From Christensenellaceae bacterium (GTDB lineage Bacteria; Bacillota; Clostridia; Christensenellales; UBA1750): a stretch of 64,000 nt of DNA. The notes below the pieces were generated by a model. It saw only the letters and a list, made by a program, of their open reading frames with translations, did not search any database and had not been told where the DNA came from. How positions within the stretch are numbered: position 1 is the first letter of the stretch; each line of letters opens with the position of its first letter. The position numbers were made by a program, and so were the translations under genes. This document shows, in pieces, positions 2,404-46,368 of this stretch. The DNA is taken from NCBI GenBank assembly GCA_031280685.1, contig JAITGM010000007.1:62001-126000 (forward strand), in the 5' to 3' direction.

Positions 2404-3248
2404 AAACCCTCGATTTAGGCTGCCTTTCCCTGCCCGTTTTGGGCCAGGGCGGCTGGTATATGGGCGACGATCCTGCCCTTGAGTCCTCGGAAGGCTCGGC
2501 GCTGCGCTTAGGGCTAGAAAAAGGCCTCTCCCTCATTGACACCGCGGAAATGTACGGCTCCGGCCGCTCAGAAAGCCTCATCGGCCGCGCGCTTGAGGGC
2601 ATCCCGCGCGAGAGCTACCTGCTCTGCTCCAAGGTCTATCCGCACAACGCGGGGCACGCGCAGATTTTCAAGAGCTGCGAAGCCTCGCTGCGGCGCCTAA
2701 AGACCGAATTTTTAGACCTTTACCTCCTCCATTGGCGCGGCTCCGTCCCGCTGGAAGAAACCATCGAGTGCATGGAGGAACTCGTCCTGCGCGACAGGAT
2801 TCGCCGCTGGGGCGTTTCGAACCTCGACCTTGGCGACATGCGGGAGCTTCTCTCCCTTCCGGGCGGCGAGCGTTGCGCGGTGAATCAGATCCTCTACCAC
2901 CTGGGTTCGCGCGGCGCGGAATATGATCTGCTCCCCTATCTGCGCCAAAACCACATCGCCGCCATGGCCTATTGCCCGCTAGCCCAGGCCGGCAGCCTGC
3001 GCCGCGGGCTGGTGCTCAACCCCGCCGTGGGCGCAGTAGCCAAAAGGCACGAAACCACGCCCTTTGCCGTGCTGCTCGCCTTCGTCCTGCGCCAAGACTG
3101 GCTGGTCGCCATCCCAAAGGCCGGCCGGATTGAGCACGTCCTGGCCAACGCGCAGGCGGCCGAGCTTGTTCTTGACGAAGCGGATCTTACCCTGCTGGAC
3201 GGAGCCTTCCCGCCGCCAACGCGCAGGCAGCCGCTCGACATCGTTTAA
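2400..3248 (+). CDS. Aldo/keto reductase
   Basis: 282 aa, one TIM-barrel domain of the aldo/keto reductase superfamily. The tetrad is readable: Asp and Tyr in LIDTAEMYGSG, Lys in LLCSKVYP and His in LYLLHWRG. The C-terminal cofactor segment VAIPKAGRIEHVLANAQA is where NADPH is usually bound. It would reduce a carbonyl substrate with NAD(P)H in the cytoplasm; the substrate is unknown. The ATG overlaps the U32 gene stop by 4 bases, and an intrinsic terminator follows about 60 bases downstream, so it closes the mltG operon. Confidence 0.9.
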   Translation: MKTLDLGCLSLPVLGQGGWYMGDDPALESSEGSALRLGLEKGLSLIDTAEMYGSGRSESLIGRALEGIPRESYLLCSKVYPHNAGHAQIFKSCEASLRRLKTEFLDLYLLHWRGSVPLEETIECMEELVLRDRIRRWGVSNLDLGDMRELLSLPGGERCAVNQILYHLGSRGAEYDLLPYLRQNHIAAMAYCPLAQAGSLRRGLVLNPAVGAVAKRHETTPFAVLLAFVLRQDWLVAIPKAGRIEHVLANAQAAELVLDEADLTLLDGAFPPPTRRQPLDIV

Positions 3249-3310
3249 CCAAAGGCAAAAAGCAGCCCGTTTTTCGCGGTCTCGGGTCGCCCTGTCAGCA
3301 TCGCGGCGCA

Positions 3311-3344
3311 AAAAAGGCCCCTCGAAAAAGAGGGGCCTTTTGCC
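3311..3344 (+). terminator. Intrinsic terminator after the aldo/keto reductase
   Basis: AAGGCCCCTC and GAGGGGCCTT form a 10-bp stem around a GAAAAA-type loop, followed by a short T run. It lies directly downstream of the aldo/keto reductase. Confidence 0.8.
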
Positions 3345-3349
3345 TGCCC

Positions 3350-3660
3350 ACGGGTTTGCTTCGCCGCTTTCATTCCTCGCGCATAGCCGGGGGAGCCGTA
3401 CGCGCTGCCGGCATGGCCTGCAACTTCGGAAGGGGCCGGCAGGCCGCAGGGCTGCCACTGCCGCGTAGCGGCAGACCGCGCGAAGCGCGGAGCCGGCCCC
3501 CGGCGCGCGAGCGAAGCGAGCGCGCCCGCCCTTTCTTCACAATGGACGGCAAAAGCATCGCTTTGGCGGCTGAAAGGCGCTGCTCCTGCGCGACCAGGGC
3601 ACCCACCTCCTCGTCGCACGGGGTACCGCAGCGCCCTTCCGCGAAGGCCCGGAGGGCCGT
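3350..3660. repeat. Palindrome-rich non-coding spacer
   Basis: About 310 bases without a supportable gene. The stretch is very GC-rich and packed with short hairpins such as TGCCGCGTAGCGGCA, CCGCGCGAAGCGCGG and GCGCGCGAGCGAAGCGAGCGCGC-type palindromes near 3455-3525. It separates the mltG operon from the convergent glmS gene. Similar hairpin-dense spacers recur near 6300 and 56600, so this may be a dispersed intergenic repeat family of the host. Confidence 0.5.
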
Positions 3661-3663
3661 GCT

Positions 3664-5493
3664 TTACTCCACCGTCACGGATTTGGCGAGGTTTCGCGGC
3701 TTATCTGGATCATAGCCTCGGAGCACGGCGCAATGGTAGGCGAAGAGCTGCAGCGGGATGATCGAAAGCAGCGGAGCGAAGAGATCGACGGTGCGCGGGA
3801 TGCGCAGAACCTGATCGGCCAGCTTTTCCCTCAAGTCCGTATCGCCGTAAGTCACGCAGAGGAGCTGAGCGCCGCGCGCGCGAACTTCCTGGATGTTGGA
3901 CTCGAGCTTATCTGCCACCAGGCCTTGGGTAGAAAGCGCGACCACGAGGGAGCCCGGCTCGATGAGCGCGATGGTGCCATGCTTGAGTTCGCCCGCCGCC
4001 ATGGCCTCTGAGTGAATATAGCTGATCTCTTTCAGCTTCAGCGAGGCCTCCATGGCGGCCGCGTAGTCCAGCCCCCTGCCGATGAAGAAGATATCCTTTT
4101 GGGCGTGGAAGAGCTCCGCGGCGCGCCGCATGGGCTCCGTGGACGACAGGATGGTTTCCGCCTTGTCGGGCAGGGTTTCCAGCTCGCGCAGGTAAAGGGC
4201 GTAGTCCTCTTCTGAAACCAGGCCCTTGTCGAAGGCGAGCTGAATGGCCAGAAGGTAGAGGCATAAGAGCTGCGTGAGGTAGGCCTTTGTTGAAGCGACG
4301 CCGATTTCCGGGCCGGCCCAGGTATAGAGCACCCTATCGGCTTCCCTAGCAATGGTGGAACCGACCACATTGGTCACGGCGAGCACCTTGCAGCCGCGCT
4401 CGCGCGCCAGGCGCATGGCCGCGATGGTGTCCGCGGTTTCGCCCGACTGGCTGACCACGATGCAAAGGTCATCCGGGCTTAAAATCGGGTCGCGGTAGCG
4501 GAATTCCGAGGCAATATCCCATTCCACGGGCACGCGGGCCAGCTTTTCGATGGCCGCCTTGCCCACCAGGCAGGCATGCGAGGCCGTGCCGCAGGCCACG
4601 AGCACCACGCGGGAAACGCCTTTTAGGTCTTCGTCGCTCAGGGCGGCCTCGCTCAGGTCGATGCTGCCCCGGCGCACGCGGGGCACCAAGGTGTCGCGCA
4701 GCGCCTTGGGCTGCTCGAAGATTTCCTTGAGCATGAAGTGGCTGTAGCCGCCGCGCTCGGCCGCGTCCACGGACCAGGTGACGGTATACAGCTCCTTTTC
4801 AACCCTCTTGCCCTCAGCGGAGTGGATTTCGACCCTGTCTTCAAAGACCAGCGCGATTTCCCCCTCGTCTAAAAGGTAAACCTCACGCGTATAGGGCAAA
4901 ACGGCCGGGATGTCGCTCGCGATATAGTTTCCTTCTGCGGAAACGCCCACAATGAGCGGGCTGCCGCGCCTGGCGGCCACCAGGCAGTTTGGCGTCTGCG
5001 CATCCAAAATGGCCAGGCCGTAGGAGCCGCGGAGCTTCGAAAGTGCCCTGACCACGGCGGGCAAAAGCCCGGCTTCGGCCTTTAGGCACTCTTCGATGAG
5101 GTGCGGAATCACCTCGGTGTCGGTCTGGCTGATGAAGGCATAGCCCGCCTTGCCCAGCTCTTCCTTCAATTGTAGGTAGTTTTCAATGATCCCGTTATGT
5201 GCCACGGCGACGCGGCCGGAGGCGCCGGTATGCGGGTGGGCGTTGATGTCTGAAGGCTCGCCGTGCGTGGCCCAGCGGGTGTGGCCGATGCCGGCGCTGC
5301 CTTTTGGGGCGCCGCCTTTGAGCTTTTCGACCAGGTTGCTCAGCTTGCCGCGCGCCTTGGCGACCTGAATCCTGCCGCCCGAAAGGGCGGCGACGCCCGC
5401 GGAATCATAGCCCCTGTATTCCAGGCGCGAAAGCCCCGAAAGCAGAACCGGAACGGCCTCCTTGGGGCCGATATAGCCAACGATGCCGCACAT
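3664..5493 (-). CDS. glmS: Glutamine--fructose-6-phosphate aminotransferase (isomerizing)
   Basis: 609 aa from the ATG at 5493, where mature GlmS starts with the nucleophile Cys (MCGIVGYIG). An N-terminal class II glutamine amidotransferase domain (to about 220) is followed by two SIS isomerase domains; the C-terminal DKPRNLAKSVTVE is the family signature. It makes glucosamine-6-phosphate for peptidoglycan precursors. A GGGAGGG ribosome site precedes the start. The leader between promoter and start is only about 60 nt, too short for a glmS ribozyme, so control must be by other means. It is monocistronic and convergent with the mltG operon. Confidence 0.97.
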   Translation of the reverse strand: MCGIVGYIGPKEAVPVLLSGLSRLEYRGYDSAGVAALSGGRIQVAKARGKLSNLVEKLKGGAPKGSAGIGHTRWATHGEPSDINAHPHTGASGRVAVAHNGIIENYLQLKEELGKAGYAFISQTDTEVIPHLIEECLKAEAGLLPAVVRALSKLRGSYGLAILDAQTPNCLVAARRGSPLIVGVSAEGNYIASDIPAVLPYTREVYLLDEGEIALVFEDRVEIHSAEGKRVEKELYTVTWSVDAAERGGYSHFMLKEIFEQPKALRDTLVPRVRRGSIDLSEAALSDEDLKGVSRVVLVACGTASHACLVGKAAIEKLARVPVEWDIASEFRYRDPILSPDDLCIVVSQSGETADTIAAMRLARERGCKVLAVTNVVGSTIAREADRVLYTWAGPEIGVASTKAYLTQLLCLYLLAIQLAFDKGLVSEEDYALYLRELETLPDKAETILSSTEPMRRAAELFHAQKDIFFIGRGLDYAAAMEASLKLKEISYIHSEAMAAGELKHGTIALIEPGSLVVALSTQGLVADKLESNIQEVRARGAQLLCVTYGDTDLREKLADQVLRIPRTVDLFAPLLSIIPLQLFAYHCAVLRGYDPDKPRNLAKSVTVE

Positions 5494-5562
5494 GCGGTGA
5501 ATCCCTCCCTTTTTGCGCCTTTTGCGCCGTGCTTTGGCCTGGCTCAGCCCAGGCTTTTCTCT

Positions 5563-5592
5563 AGTATATAGCAAATGCAAGGAAATGTTCAA
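5563..5592 (-). promoter_or_regulatory. Sigma-A-type promoter of glmS
   Basis: On the minus strand, TTGAAC (5592-5587) and TATACT (5568-5563) are separated by 18 bases, upstream of the glmS start with a leader of about 60 nt that contains a small GCCTGG...CCAGGC hairpin. Confidence 0.65.
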
Positions 5593-5747
5593 CCGCCGCG
5601 GTTTGAAATGTTATGCGCCCGAGAATGGCGCCGTGTTTTTCACGGCCCACGGCAGCTCCCATGCCTTATGCCCATGGGAATTTTGCGCTCTCTACCATGC
5701 AAAGAATAAAGAAGTTAAAAATAGAAAGCCTATTGATCAAAAACATA

Positions 5748-5776
5748 TTGACAGACAAGCCATTAAGTAATAGTGT
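5748..5776 (+). promoter_or_regulatory. Candidate promoter of the BlaI-like gene
   Basis: TTGACA at 5748-5753 and a TAGTGT-like -10 at 5771-5776 are 17 bases apart. The surrounding 5700-5775 stretch is AT-rich compared with the neighbourhood. If it is used, a GTG at 5773 cannot be the start codon of the downstream gene. Confidence 0.5.
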
Positions 5777-42506: not shown

Positions 42507-43124
42507 TCAATCTTTGTATGGATTTTGCAAGCTCCAGTCCCAAAGCTCGCCGCTACTGTAGGTGTTGCGAAAATGGTTGTTCTTGCCGTCGCCCGTGAAG
42601 AATGTGTATTCTGCTGGAAGAACGCGCCCCGCATCTCCAAGGCCGATTTTTTCAAGCTTCCACCGCGCCAGCACGTCGGCGGCTATGGCTATATGCTCTT
42701 CTGTGGCCGGATAGCTCGGCGAGTATCCCACGAACTGGTTTTCTTGCTTCACAACCTCGGCTATGGTATCCGGCCAGCGCGGATCGTCAACCCGGTTCAG
42801 CACGCACCATACAACCGCCGCTTTTTCCGCTGTAGAGGGAATGCCCCGTGCTTCGCCCCATATGAGCCGCGCCAGCATTTCAACGTCGTTTTCGTCCCGC
42901 TCCGCTTCCGGCGCTCTTATTACACTGTCGCCCGGTTCTGTTGCGCTTTCGGCTTGTTCGATAACACTTTCTGGTGTTTCAATAACGGTTTCCGGCGTTT
43001 CGGTCACATAATCGGGCGTTGTGTCGCTGTTGGTTGCCAGTGTCGGCGTATGTGGCGGCATAATTGCTGCGGCGAAAATAACAACGCCCGCTATCATGCA
43101 GATAAGAAGGGAAGGCTTTTTCAT
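42507..43124 (-). CDS. Membrane-anchored cell wall hydrolase, SleB/Hydrolase_2 type
   Basis: 205 aa. An N-terminal signal anchor (LLICMIAGVVIFAAAIM) is followed by a low-complexity linker with repeated ETPETVIETPESVIEQAES units and then a SleB-like Hydrolase_2 domain: MLARLIWGEARGIPSTAEKAAVVWCVLNRVDDPRWP carries the catalytic Glu. These enzymes are lytic transglycosylase-like. It lies in the early operon beside methyltransferase genes, not in the lysis cassette, so it may act during lysogeny or early infection. Confidence 0.82.
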   Translation of the reverse strand: MKKPSLLICMIAGVVIFAAAIMPPHTPTLATNSDTTPDYVTETPETVIETPESVIEQAESATEPGDSVIRAPEAERDENDVEMLARLIWGEARGIPSTAEKAAVVWCVLNRVDDPRWPDTIAEVVKQENQFVGYSPSYPATEEHIAIAADVLARWKLEKIGLGDAGRVLPAEYTFFTGDGKNNHFRNTYSSGELWDWSLQNPYKD

Positions 43125-43924
43125 ATAGCCGCCTCCTTTATCCAAAGAACTTCAATGCGTGCTTGCCCCCGCTCGGCGGCGGCTTTCTTTTCAATGCGCT
43201 GCCAGCCCGCCAAGCGCTCGTTGTAAAGTTCGTTGTCGTACCCGCTCAAAACCACGGAACCGGAATGCGCCGCCAATGCCTCCAGTAATTCCACATGCTG
43301 CGCATCGTTCATTTCAATGGCATATATGTTTTTTCGGCGGGTTCCCGGTACATATGGCGGATCGGCATAAATAAGACATTTTGGATCGTTGTACTTGCGG
43401 ATAAGCTCCAAAGCGTCCATGCACTCTATTTGCGCTTCCATTAGGCGGCCGGCCGCTTGTATGATCCTCTCTGGAACCTTCGCCCATTGCTGCGGCATTG
43501 CGGGCGCTCTGCCTGTAGCGCTGTGCCTCCAGCCTGTTTTTTGCCCGGTAAGCGTTCCGAAAGCCTGCCAGCATCGCACAAGGAAAAGGCGTGCGGCGTA
43601 TAAGTCGGCTTCGTCGCTATGCTTGCAAGCCTCCAGCGCTTCAAGCGCCGTGCAAGCGATTTCGTATTCTTCACGCGCCCACGGCGTTAAGGCTATGAGC
43701 GCCGCCAACTCTTCCGGTTGGCTACGAATGACGCGAAACAGATTTACCACGTTGTGATCGCGGTCGTTTATGGTTTCCAGTCGGGCGGGTTTTTTGTTAA
43801 AAAATATGGCTCCGCTACCGAAGAATGGTTCAAGGTAGATTTCATGCGCCGGAAGTTGTGGTATAATCCAGCTCGCCGCGCTCCATTTTGCACCGGGATA
43901 TTTCAAAAGCGGTCGTTGTGTCAT
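43121..43924 (-). CDS. DNA adenine methylase, Dam/D12 class
   Basis: 267 aa from ATG 43924 (GGAGG upstream). N-terminal PLLKYPGAKWS and YLEPFFGSGAIFF bind SAM; the catalytic motif is CLIYADPPYVPGTR. RARLFL-type features (AARLFLVRCWQAFGTLTG) also fit the D12 class. It methylates N6 of adenine, probably in a GATC-like site. Its start overlaps the stop of the C5 methyltransferase gene (ATGA). Confidence 0.92.
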   Translation of the reverse strand: MTQRPLLKYPGAKWSAASWIIPQLPAHEIYLEPFFGSGAIFFNKKPARLETINDRDHNVVNLFRVIRSQPEELAALIALTPWAREEYEIACTALEALEACKHSDEADLYAARLFLVRCWQAFGTLTGQKTGWRHSATGRAPAMPQQWAKVPERIIQAAGRLMEAQIECMDALELIRKYNDPKCLIYADPPYVPGTRRKNIYAIEMNDAQHVELLEALAAHSGSVVLSGYDNELYNERLAGWQRIEKKAAAERGQARIEVLWIKEAAI

Positions 43925-45264
43925 ATAGCTGCCTCCCTGCCCCGCCATACATCGAAGTAACCCGCTCGGCGCACTGCGAAAGCGTCCCCGCGCTGGACAA
44001 TATCCGGGTAATTGCTGCTTGCTATTTGCATTGCGTATTTGTCTATCTCAAAGGCGTAATACTTTATGTTGTTGTATCCCAACTGGTCGAAGCAATAGCG
44101 CCCCGTGCCGATCCCGTCATACATGGACATAACAACAATTCTTTCATCCAGCGGAACGCCCGCCAGCGCGTGGCGTAAAAGGTGTATAATAACTTCCGCT
44201 GTCCAACCGTTGCCAAGCCCTCTATACGCTTGCGTATCAGATACCGCCCGGCAATAATCGTCCGGCAAGGTCTGGAGGCGGCAAGCCTCGGTTACGCTTA
44301 ATTTTCGGATTATGTAATAGCCATCCGGTAATTTGATAGGATAGGTTTTGCCCTTAATCTCAATTTGTCCAGCTTCCACGCGATACACTGGCCGGCCGCG
44401 CTCCACATTATCAGAAGGCACGGCATAAAGCCCGGTTCGGCTACTGCTTTTATCGCTACATCCTCCTGCGGTCGTGGCCGCTTGCAGGGCAACGCTTTTT
44501 GCGTCTACCGCATAAATGCGCTTTGATTGTGTTGGTTTCAGCTCGCCCTTTTCATTCGGAAGACAACCAACCCGGACGGGTACGCCTTGATAACCCTTCG
44601 TGCGGATTATGTTTTCTTCGAAATTGCGTTTGCCGCATTTGTCATATGAAGCGCGGAAGCATTCGGCCTTTTCCCGGTCGGCAACTGGCATAGCGTAAAG
44701 CCCCGTTGCTGCACCCCCGCCGCCGTCCGTCGCTTTTAGTGTAACGCTCTTTCCGTCAACGCCATAAATGCGCCCCGCCTGCTGCTGGTAGTCCGGCCAC
44801 GTTCCCACACGGTTAGGTGCTACCGCCTCGGCAACCATATTCCGGGTATGTCGCTTCAAACTGTCTTCCGGCGTGGGGCCGTGCGCCGTGGTAAGTGTGT
44901 ATGCTTTATCGCTCCAACTTTCGCCCCGCTCCAAAATGTCTTGAAGTAATATGCCGCGGTCTTCCGGCTGCGGAACGTCGCCGAAATTGTGGCAATAGAA
45001 CCGTTCCCGCCGCTGCGCGGATACCAGCGCCGAATTGATATACTGGAGCGGCGCGCCAAGCTCGGCGGCTATCTGGTCTTTGATCGGCTGCGCGGCGCTT
45101 TTGTTGTTCTCGTATAAGAAGAAGTCCGGCTTGAAGCGCTCTTTGGCGATAAGGTAGTTTCTGAATAGCTCCCACCCTATGCCCTCGGCTTCGGTTTCGC
45201 GGTTCTTGCTCTGCGCTATGCTCCAGTGCGTGCAGGGCGAACCGCCGATTAAGAATTTGATCAT
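43921..45264 (-). CDS. Circularly permuted DNA cytosine-5 methyltransferase
   Basis: 447 aa from ATG 45264, with AAAGGTG upstream. Motif order is unusual: the N-terminus begins with motif IV (IGGSPCTHWSIA, catalytic Cys), then motif VI-like FFLYENN and motif VIII-like SAQRRERFY. Then come a variable target-recognition stretch with two repeated RIYxVDxKSV...GLYA(M/V)P units and motif IX/X (LSVTEACRLQTLPDDY, YRGLGNGWT). SAM-binding motif I (VVMSMYDGIGTGRYCFDQLGY) comes last, with motifs II-III. The DGIGTG form resembles Dnmt3-type sequences. It probably protects phage DNA. Confidence 0.88.
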   Translation of the reverse strand: MIKFLIGGSPCTHWSIAQSKNRETEAEGIGWELFRNYLIAKERFKPDFFLYENNKSAAQPIKDQIAAELGAPLQYINSALVSAQRRERFYCHNFGDVPQPEDRGILLQDILERGESWSDKAYTLTTAHGPTPEDSLKRHTRNMVAEAVAPNRVGTWPDYQQQAGRIYGVDGKSVTLKATDGGGGAATGLYAMPVADREKAECFRASYDKCGKRNFEENIIRTKGYQGVPVRVGCLPNEKGELKPTQSKRIYAVDAKSVALQAATTAGGCSDKSSSRTGLYAVPSDNVERGRPVYRVEAGQIEIKGKTYPIKLPDGYYIIRKLSVTEACRLQTLPDDYCRAVSDTQAYRGLGNGWTAEVIIHLLRHALAGVPLDERIVVMSMYDGIGTGRYCFDQLGYNNIKYYAFEIDKYAMQIASSNYPDIVQRGDAFAVRRAGYFDVWRGREAAI

Positions 45265-45349
45265 GTTAGTTAGCACCTTTCGTTAATGGTTAGCCAGGCG
45301 GGGGACGGGTTCGATCACGTCTGGCGGGGCAGTCAATATTTGAAGCCGC

Positions 45350-45606: not shown

Positions 45607-45623
45607 GTTACGTAAAACGCAAC
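45607..45623. promoter_or_regulatory. Operator copy downstream of the Cro-like gene
   Basis: GTTACGTAAAACGCAAC, an imperfect dyad (GTTACGT/ACGCAAC), and exactly the inverse complement of 45859-45875. It lies at the end of the Cro-like gene, before the next early gene. Confidence 0.7.
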
Positions 45624-45844
45624 TACGCCGCAAAAAAAATATCTTGCGGCCTTGCGTTTAGGACGGAAGCGAAGGCTTCCATCTCGCTTCGCGTAAAATC
45701 GGTTTTCCCGTTAATACGCGCGGAAAGAGTGGCACGGCTCATTCCCATCTTTTCGGCCATTGTGCCAATGTCAAGGCCAGCATCTACAAGTTTTGCCTTC
45801 AAACTCCGCGACTGGCCTTCTGTCAAATAGGCGTGTGCGCTCAT
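45623..45844 (-). CDS. Cro-like helix-turn-helix regulator
   Basis: 73 aa from ATG 45844 (GGAGGTG upstream). AGLDIGTMAEKMGMSRATLSARINGKTDFTRSEMEAFASVLN is a compact XRE-type HTH. It is divergent from the CI-like gene and is the first gene of the early operon. Two inverted copies of a 17-base operator flank it, so it probably controls both its own promoter and readthrough into the operon. Confidence 0.82.
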   Translation of the reverse strand: MSAHAYLTEGQSRSLKAKLVDAGLDIGTMAEKMGMSRATLSARINGKTDFTRSEMEAFASVLNARPQDIFFAA

Positions 45845-45858
45845 CGTTTTCACCTCCT

Positions 45859-45875
45859 GTTGCGTTTTACGTAAC
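45859..45875. promoter_or_regulatory. Operator copy upstream of the Cro-like gene
   Basis: Plus strand GTTGCGTTTTACGTAAC, the exact inverse complement of the copy at 45607-45623. It lies between the early promoter -10 and the Cro-like start codon, ideal for repression. Confidence 0.75.
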
Positions 45876-45876
45876 C

Positions 45877-45906
45877 ATGATAGCATACTGTTTGTGGGCT
45901 TGTCAA
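45877..45906 (-). promoter_or_regulatory. Early (PR-like) promoter
   Basis: On the minus strand TTGACA (45906-45901) and TATCAT (45882-45877), 18 bases apart, drive the Cro-like gene and the early operon. Confidence 0.7.
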
Positions 45907-45912
45907 TACGCC

Positions 45913-45936
45913 ACGTCAAAAAGTTTCGTTTGACGT
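45913..45936. promoter_or_regulatory. CI-type operator between divergent promoters
   Basis: ACGTCAAA-N8-TTTGACGT, a perfect 8-bp dyad midway between the two divergent -35 elements, a different sequence from the Cro-type operators. A CI dimer here could touch polymerase on both sides. Confidence 0.65.
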
Positions 45937-45966: not shown

Positions 45967-45996
45967 GAAAGAACCTTATTGAAATGTGGTGGTTTT

Positions 45997-46368
45997 ATGA
46001 ACATAGGGGATAGGATAAGAGAATTAAGAGAACGGCGCGGCCTCACGCAAGAAGAGGTCGGAAGTCACCTGAATGTCAATAAGGCGACTGTGCAGCGTTA
46101 CGAAAGCGGTAACATTGATATTAAGCGTAAAACCGCTTTGCTGCTTGCCGAAGTCTTGCAAACAACCCCCGCTTACATTATGGGATGGGAAGACGAAGTT
46201 GTGGAGCCTGACACGCTCACCGCTGACGAACAACAGCTTTTGCGTGATTACCGGGCGTTGAGCGATCAGGGCAAAGAGTACATGCGCCAAACTATGGTTA
46301 TGGCGCTTCACACATATAAAAAAGATAGTGCTATTTCCGACATGGAAGTTGCCGAAGAAATAGGGTAA
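45997..46368 (+). CDS. CI-like lysogeny repressor (XRE family)
   Basis: 123 aa from ATG 45997. Strong N-terminal HTH (IGDRIRELRERRGLTQEEVGSHLNVNKATVQRYESGNIDIKRKTALLLAEVLQTTPAYIMGW), then an acidic hinge and a helical C-terminal region (DEQQLLRDYRALSDQGKEYMRQTMVMAL). No LexA-like peptidase domain is present, so induction cannot occur by RecA-stimulated self-cleavage and probably needs an antirepressor or metalloprotease, neither of which was found nearby. Confidence 0.9.
   Translation: MNIGDRIRELRERRGLTQEEVGSHLNVNKATVQRYESGNIDIKRKTALLLAEVLQTTPAYIMGWEDEVVEPDTLTADEQQLLRDYRALSDQGKEYMRQTMVMALHTYKKDSAISDMEVAEEIG

Follow-up and report, generated by a model that had tools for sequence, protein, structure and literature searches.

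In their 2018 survey of REBASE, Albert et al. found natural circular permutants of C5-cytosine DNA methyltransferases cut only in the target-recognition (TRD) region, and cuts between motifs II and III (II/III) or between motifs III and IV (III/IV) existed as laboratory constructs only (PMC5944983). Laboratory variants of M.HaeIII that start between motifs II and IV are active, and laboratory II/III enzymes are highly active; a natural II/III example was not found in that survey, and weaker SAM binding was proposed as a possible reason (PMC5944983). The natural type H/J enzymes (M.BssHII, M.Alw26I, M2.Eco31I, M.Esp3I, M2.BsaI) have their N-terminus in the variable region between motifs VIII and IX, with IX and X placed before I–VIII (PMC5944983), and in plant DRM motifs VI–X come first and are followed by I–IV, with IV on the C-terminal side (PMC3934875).

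The protein considered here is encoded in a 64,000-nucleotide stretch (the window) of a Christensenellaceae bacterium genome (GCA_031280685.1, contig JAITGM010000007.1, positions 62,001 to 126,000). It resembles the type H/J enzymes in having motif X before motif I and a complete motif set, but its N-terminus falls between motifs III and IV, and motifs IV–VIII precede the TRD. Like plant DRM (4onq, 7l4c) it places X before I, with a colinear structural match over VI-X-I-III (Z 16–18), whereas its motif IV is N-terminal. The chain opens with IV and closes after III, giving a III/IV (type C-like) order with the same kind of cut as permutants that are active in the laboratory; those, however, were designed or selected in vitro, and type B among them appeared, by that account, to have no natural counterpart (PMC5944983).

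Motif order and predicted fold of the window protein

The gene is a 447-aa open reading frame on the minus strand, unbroken and without a frameshift, which runs from an ATG at 45264 to a stop at 43921, with an in-frame GTG alternative at 45276 (Table 1). Its motifs stand in the order IV-VI-VIII-TRD-IX-X-I-II-III, and the set of C5-methyltransferase motifs I, IV (PC), VI (ENx), VIII (QxRxR), IX and X is full. Motif IV (GGSPCT) occupies residues 7–12, with six residues ahead of GGSPC, and motif I (SMYDGIGTG) lies at about residues 380–388, which bears out the first-pass annotation in its reading of a circular permutation with the PC motif first and motif I last. The cores of motifs VIII and X read SAQRRERFY and GNGWT, motif IX is also given as RKLSVTEACRLQTLP, and the catalytic residues are invariant across 46 aligned homologues. 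PF00145 matches the protein in two stretches, the better of which pairs residues 2–363 with model positions 62–319; this stretch begins at model position 62, and the N-terminal part of the model therefore sits elsewhere in the protein. The NCBIfam model dcm matches only below the NCBIfam cut-off. The source genome carries a single copy of the gene (100% identical) and two further C5-methyltransferases of conventional order on other contigs. We conclude from the sequence that the gene product is very probably a C5-cytosine DNA methyltransferase that is complete in a single chain and circularly permuted, with the cut between motifs III and IV.

Table 1. Methylase gene, its motifs and TRD modules, and neighbouring genes (positions in the window)
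Feature	Position	Strand	Basis
Putative permuted C5-cytosine DNA methyltransferase	43921..45264	-	Intact ORF; PF00145 1.1e-19
Motif IV FLIGGSPCTHWS, catalytic Cys11, extreme N-terminus	45220..45255	-	G7–T12 invariant in 46 homologues
Motif VI FFLYENN	45103..45123	-	E52, N53, N54 invariant in 46 homologues
Motif VIII SALVSAQRRERFYCHNFG	44980..45033	-	Q84, R86, R88 invariant in 46 homologues
TRD module type A, residues 119–148	44821..44910	-	Module HMM
TRD module type D copy 1 (first unit of the first-pass annotation), residues 160–193	44686..44787	-	Module HMM; direct repeat
TRD module type M, residues 198–228	44581..44673	-	Module HMM
TRD module type D copy 2 (second unit of the first-pass annotation), residues 244–283	44416..44535	-	Module HMM; direct repeat
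Motif IX IIRKLSVTEACRLQTLPDDY	44254..44313	-	Alignment of homologues
Motif X YRGLGNGWTAEVIIHLL, Asn352 retained	44176..44226	-	G351, G353, W354, T355 invariant; N352 nearly
New junction, ancestral C-terminus (X) joined to ancestral N-terminus (I)	44140..44175	-	Fixed spacing
Motifs I, II, III (SMYDGIGTG, FEID, GDAF), C-terminal	43969..44139	-	D383, G384, E406, G426, D427, A428, F429 invariant
D12-class adenine methyltransferase, overlaps the 3' end of the methylase gene by 28 nt	43121..43948	-	PF02086 6.3e-23
Cro-like HTH gene, upstream, same leftward operon	45623..45919	-	HTH_3 2.1e-07; transcriptional repressor phrog_2328
Divergent prophage repressor	45979..46368	+	phrog_8 2.4e-20

Structure prediction, which had been proposed as a check on the permutation, was run with AlphaFold2. 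In the window protein (pLDDT 74, pTM 0.74) the core is modelled with confidence and the TRD array poorly, much of the array (116–225) falling below pLDDT 50. In the model of a one-module relative of 308 aa with the window-type order (L044), the chain forms a single compact C5-methyltransferase domain (pLDDT 88.5, pTM 0.89). Structural alignments follow chain order, and ntDRM is itself permuted. In the VIA alignments residues 1–237 of the L044 model superpose on M.HhaI 71–326 (Z 20.8, rmsd 3.2, 233 aligned), with M.HhaI 1–70 (motifs I–III) lacking a counterpart as permutation predicts, and residues 46–308 superpose on ntDRM 287–555 (Z 18.3, rmsd 3.3, 224 aligned). The latter alignment spans X and I–III and therefore ties them into one superposition. 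The window protein model gives the same two patterns, with Z 18.5 for M.HhaI and 16.3 for ntDRM. The earlier label ‘Dnmt3-like’ is fair, though weak. DNMT3A is indeed the top PDB match by sequence (1.7e-6, mostly over IV–VIII), but the top match by fold is M.HhaI. Folding of the permuted chain would return motifs I–III to their usual place beside X for SAM binding; Cys11 would then attack C6 of the flipped cytosine and the methyl group would pass to C5, as in M.HhaI.

Two other readings of the protein bear on this mechanism. Phage homologues of C5-methyltransferases can be carboxymethyltransferases (PMC12783734), and the window enzyme might transfer such a group from Cx-SAM, as phage CmoX does. 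CmoX, however, has Arg at the position of HhaI Asn304 in motif X together with SPPC, whereas the window family retains GNGW, with N352 nearly invariant, and GGSPC; motif X thus opposes a carboxymethyltransferase, which we regard as scarcely tenable. It could also be argued that the protein works only as one half of a heterodimer, in which the I–III tail or the IV–X part needs a partner methyltransferase, since C5 enzymes bisected between VIII and TRD can complement (PMC5944983) and a split permuted pair occurs in nature. The Faecalibacterium phage FP_Toutatis (MG711466; L403, 1501–2912) carries a methylase of the II/III family described below as two adjacent genes (AUV56727 and AUV56728), the first of which starts at III and has IV and VI, and the second TRD-IX-X-I-II. 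The window chain nevertheless lacks none of the motifs, scanning for motifs revealed no other C5-methyltransferase within the window, and the minimal relative gave its high pTM when modelled alone, so that a required partner is very improbable.

Distribution, selection and independent permutations

A first scan of viral contigs returned 50 related loci, the majority with an identical motif order, and all loci together yielded 79 distinct ORFs of the window-type order; IMG/VR loci overlap between scans, and counts are therefore given as distinct sequences. Permuted C5-methyltransferases had been called rare in the first-pass annotation, a description that does not hold for the window-type order, which is common in the phages of gut Bacillota. 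Members occur in isolates including Butyricicoccus pullicaecorum DSM 23266, Criibacterium bergeronii and Flavonifractor sp. An82, and one permuted ORF is present in a 2-contig, 100% complete genome (G366). Some members are recorded as hypothetical or of unknown function, and phage DNA methylation is therefore probably under-annotated: the intact permuted member of phage nd4 (WRQ08028) reads hypothetical protein, and phrog_17284 (PHROG 17284, unknown function) matches the TRD-IX-X-I region of the window protein at 3.7e-68, neither record bearing a methyltransferase name. The family chain usually ends about 17 residues past GDA. Five loci (L015, L016, L021, L063, L064) have well over 150 additional residues C-terminal to motif III (MTLREANAYVEQNHRHHGPV...), an extension that looks like a separate fused domain.

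The distance from GNGW to SMYDG is 27–29 residues in all 76 permuted ORFs measured, the short X-to-I linker is more variable than the conserved blocks, and dN/dS is 0–0.18 in the IV–VIII, IX–X and I–III blocks wherever estimable, which indicates purifying selection on every conserved block of the permuted family. These data bear on the suspicion, raised in part with the original call, that a frameshift, an assembly join or a prophage-end effect makes two genes mimic one permuted gene. Split ORFs do exist at some loci (L014, L026, L027, L042, L050, L054), but the 79 distinct intact ORFs with one order, the copy in the complete 2-contig genome, the purifying selection and the fixed junction spacing contradict such an origin, whose remaining probability we put as negligible.

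Trees were built with the conserved blocks rearranged beforehand into conventional order. In the tree of the concatenated blocks, a branch with SH-aLRT 100 separates 66 permuted proteins from the rest, and a careful subset tree supports the permuted branch at 100/100 (bootstrap 100). The branch adjoins eight conventional-order phage enzymes (L086, L189, L191, L196–L199, L202), the nearest relatives in the concatenated tree, which have a GGSPCT.WSIAQ-like motif IV and, unlike the window family, run I–III then IV–X. Trees of I–III only and of IV–X only are less resolved and recover no single clade; because each needs two changes for the permuted label, a single origin of the window family, resting on the concatenated tree, is likely and short of proven. 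Between the two halves, pairwise distances are correlated (Mantel r 0.51; null maximum 0.18), as expected if both halves travelled together.

The III/IV order also occurs outside the window family. A second lineage (GGSPCQGFSFAGKQLNF) is an intact ORF in a complete one-contig genome (G179; L229, 4412–5260), with a TTG start behind a GAGGAG site, and recurs in another contig (L233, 1983–2936). Joining this lineage with the window family was rejected by the AU test (p = 0.006, the group having been named after the pattern was seen), and this comparison marks it as an independent III/IV permutation in a different phage C5-methyltransferase lineage. A third family begins at motif III (MKHLGDITKING...GGSPCQDL) and ends with I–II (TMASLFDGIGGFPLIWE...EIEEFPIAVTK), a II/III cut; because both cut and sequence differ, the sequences point to a separate event. 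The scan yielded 13 distinct single-ORF members of this large family, with loci that include L188 (4990–6702) and L313–L348; there are also copies in genome G129 and in the faecal phage MT835513, and conventional-order relatives in G366, G136 and G201. On contig 3300035507_000091 a II/III member adjoins a member of the window family. Phages thus appear to have evolved rotations of C5-methyltransferases at least three times. Each probably began with the duplication in tandem of a conventional phage enzyme, followed by in-frame fusion and trimming of the ends; this would have happened once in the window family and on separate occasions in at least two more. A conventional-order relative (L231/L225, G130:C1) lacks motifs I–II in frame and has unrelated sequence instead.

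No natural II/III or III/IV permutant described after 2017 was found in the open-access literature, to which the search was confined; as far as that literature goes, both are new natural topologies within a known kind of enzyme. Natural III/IV and II/III enzymes make the SAM-affinity idea (PMC5944983) directly testable.

Modular organization of the TRD

The two repeated units of the original annotation are real and correspond to two type D modules, between which a 43-nt direct repeat (44479–44521 and 44731–44773) is 79% identical, but they are an incomplete account of a four-module region with the arrangement A-D-M-D. Modules were assigned with profile HMMs built from 14 hand-picked seeds, several of which overlap: A, B, H, I, J and M seem to be related, and C, R and K seem to form a second such group. 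Across the 66 permuted proteins these profiles detect one to six modules per protein in 52 arrangements. Modules of these kinds are also present in the conventional-order relatives, and the array is therefore probably older than the permutation. Locus L066 has two tandem permuted methylase genes (2998–4173 and 4231–5769) with the arrays GD and HHDD. In L026, L050 and L075 permuted ORFs that are otherwise good are split by frameshifts within the glycine-rich part of a D module; sequencing error, decay or slippage could account for these.

Multispecific C5-methyltransferases of Bacillus phages, such as M.H2I, have the conventional order. They are phage orphan methylases with several tandem TRD-like units, and the likeness shown to the window protein, with its four HMM-assigned modules, is one of tandem arrangement. 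As cited in a published account (PMC8936443), tandem TRDs give Bacillus phage C5 enzymes several specificities, and for this reason it is reasonable to infer by analogy that the window enzyme is multispecific, its modules setting specificity; the four modules between VIII and IX would serve as alternative target-recognition units. An active single-chain methylase might instead read DNA through one module, the rest being spacers or decaying remnants, and two observations are in keeping with this: only the last module clearly packs in the model, confident prediction of the array being limited to that region, and 12 of the 66 family members have a single detected module. Against it, most copies keep a K[SAT]xx[LI] core and the modules recur in many orders, TRD dN/dS is 0.05–0.14 in five of six estimable pairs, and the Bacillus phage precedent has tandem TRDs conferring several specificities (PMC8936443). 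We consider a single reading module unlikely. We lean modestly towards a combined account in which phages have repeatedly and independently permuted these enzymes inside the SAM-binding half (III/IV at least twice, II/III once), in topologies thought missing from nature, with combinatorial modules in the window family yielding multispecific anti-restriction methylases. The large natural set of rearranged recognition modules offers a means of learning how C5 enzymes read DNA.

Genomic setting and proposed function

The prophage that contains the gene also has terminase, head and tape-measure genes. Within a leftward operon that faces the divergent repressor and a serine integrase, the gene lies downstream of the Cro-like HTH gene and of a gene for a 79-aa protein. 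On the question of an endonuclease partner, the neighbours searched include the HTH gene, the 79-aa protein, which has no Pfam match, and the D12 adenine methylase. The permuted gene of G366 also has a D12 adenine methylase neighbour; a conserved unit with the adenine methylase was rejected, as one lies just downstream in only 1 of 82 permuted ORFs of the locus set, a test limited by locus ends. From its operon position the methylase is probably expressed in the lytic phase, and the best fit to that position is an early-lytic orphan methylase that would shield phage DNA from host restriction. Absence of 5mC from the lysogen had been offered as a refutation of the methylase call; because gene position points to probably lytic expression, it would be a weak one.

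Phase variation of the window gene was also considered and rejected, the coding sequence having no homopolymer of six bases or longer and the gene no internal inverted repeat of 14 nt or longer. At two identical loci (L200 and L203; IMGVR 3300029705_000082 and 3300024270_000132), the half of a permuted methylase that carries motifs IV–VIII lies on the opposite strand (2626–3025). A search for the alternative orientation of this segment returned the same two contigs only, with no on state, and no recombinase for the inversion was identified. The segment is bounded by perfect 15-nt inverted repeats (2626–2640 and 3011–3025), its inversion in silico gives one in-frame ORF with a ribosome-binding site, and these features may mark a phase-variable switch that is turned off.
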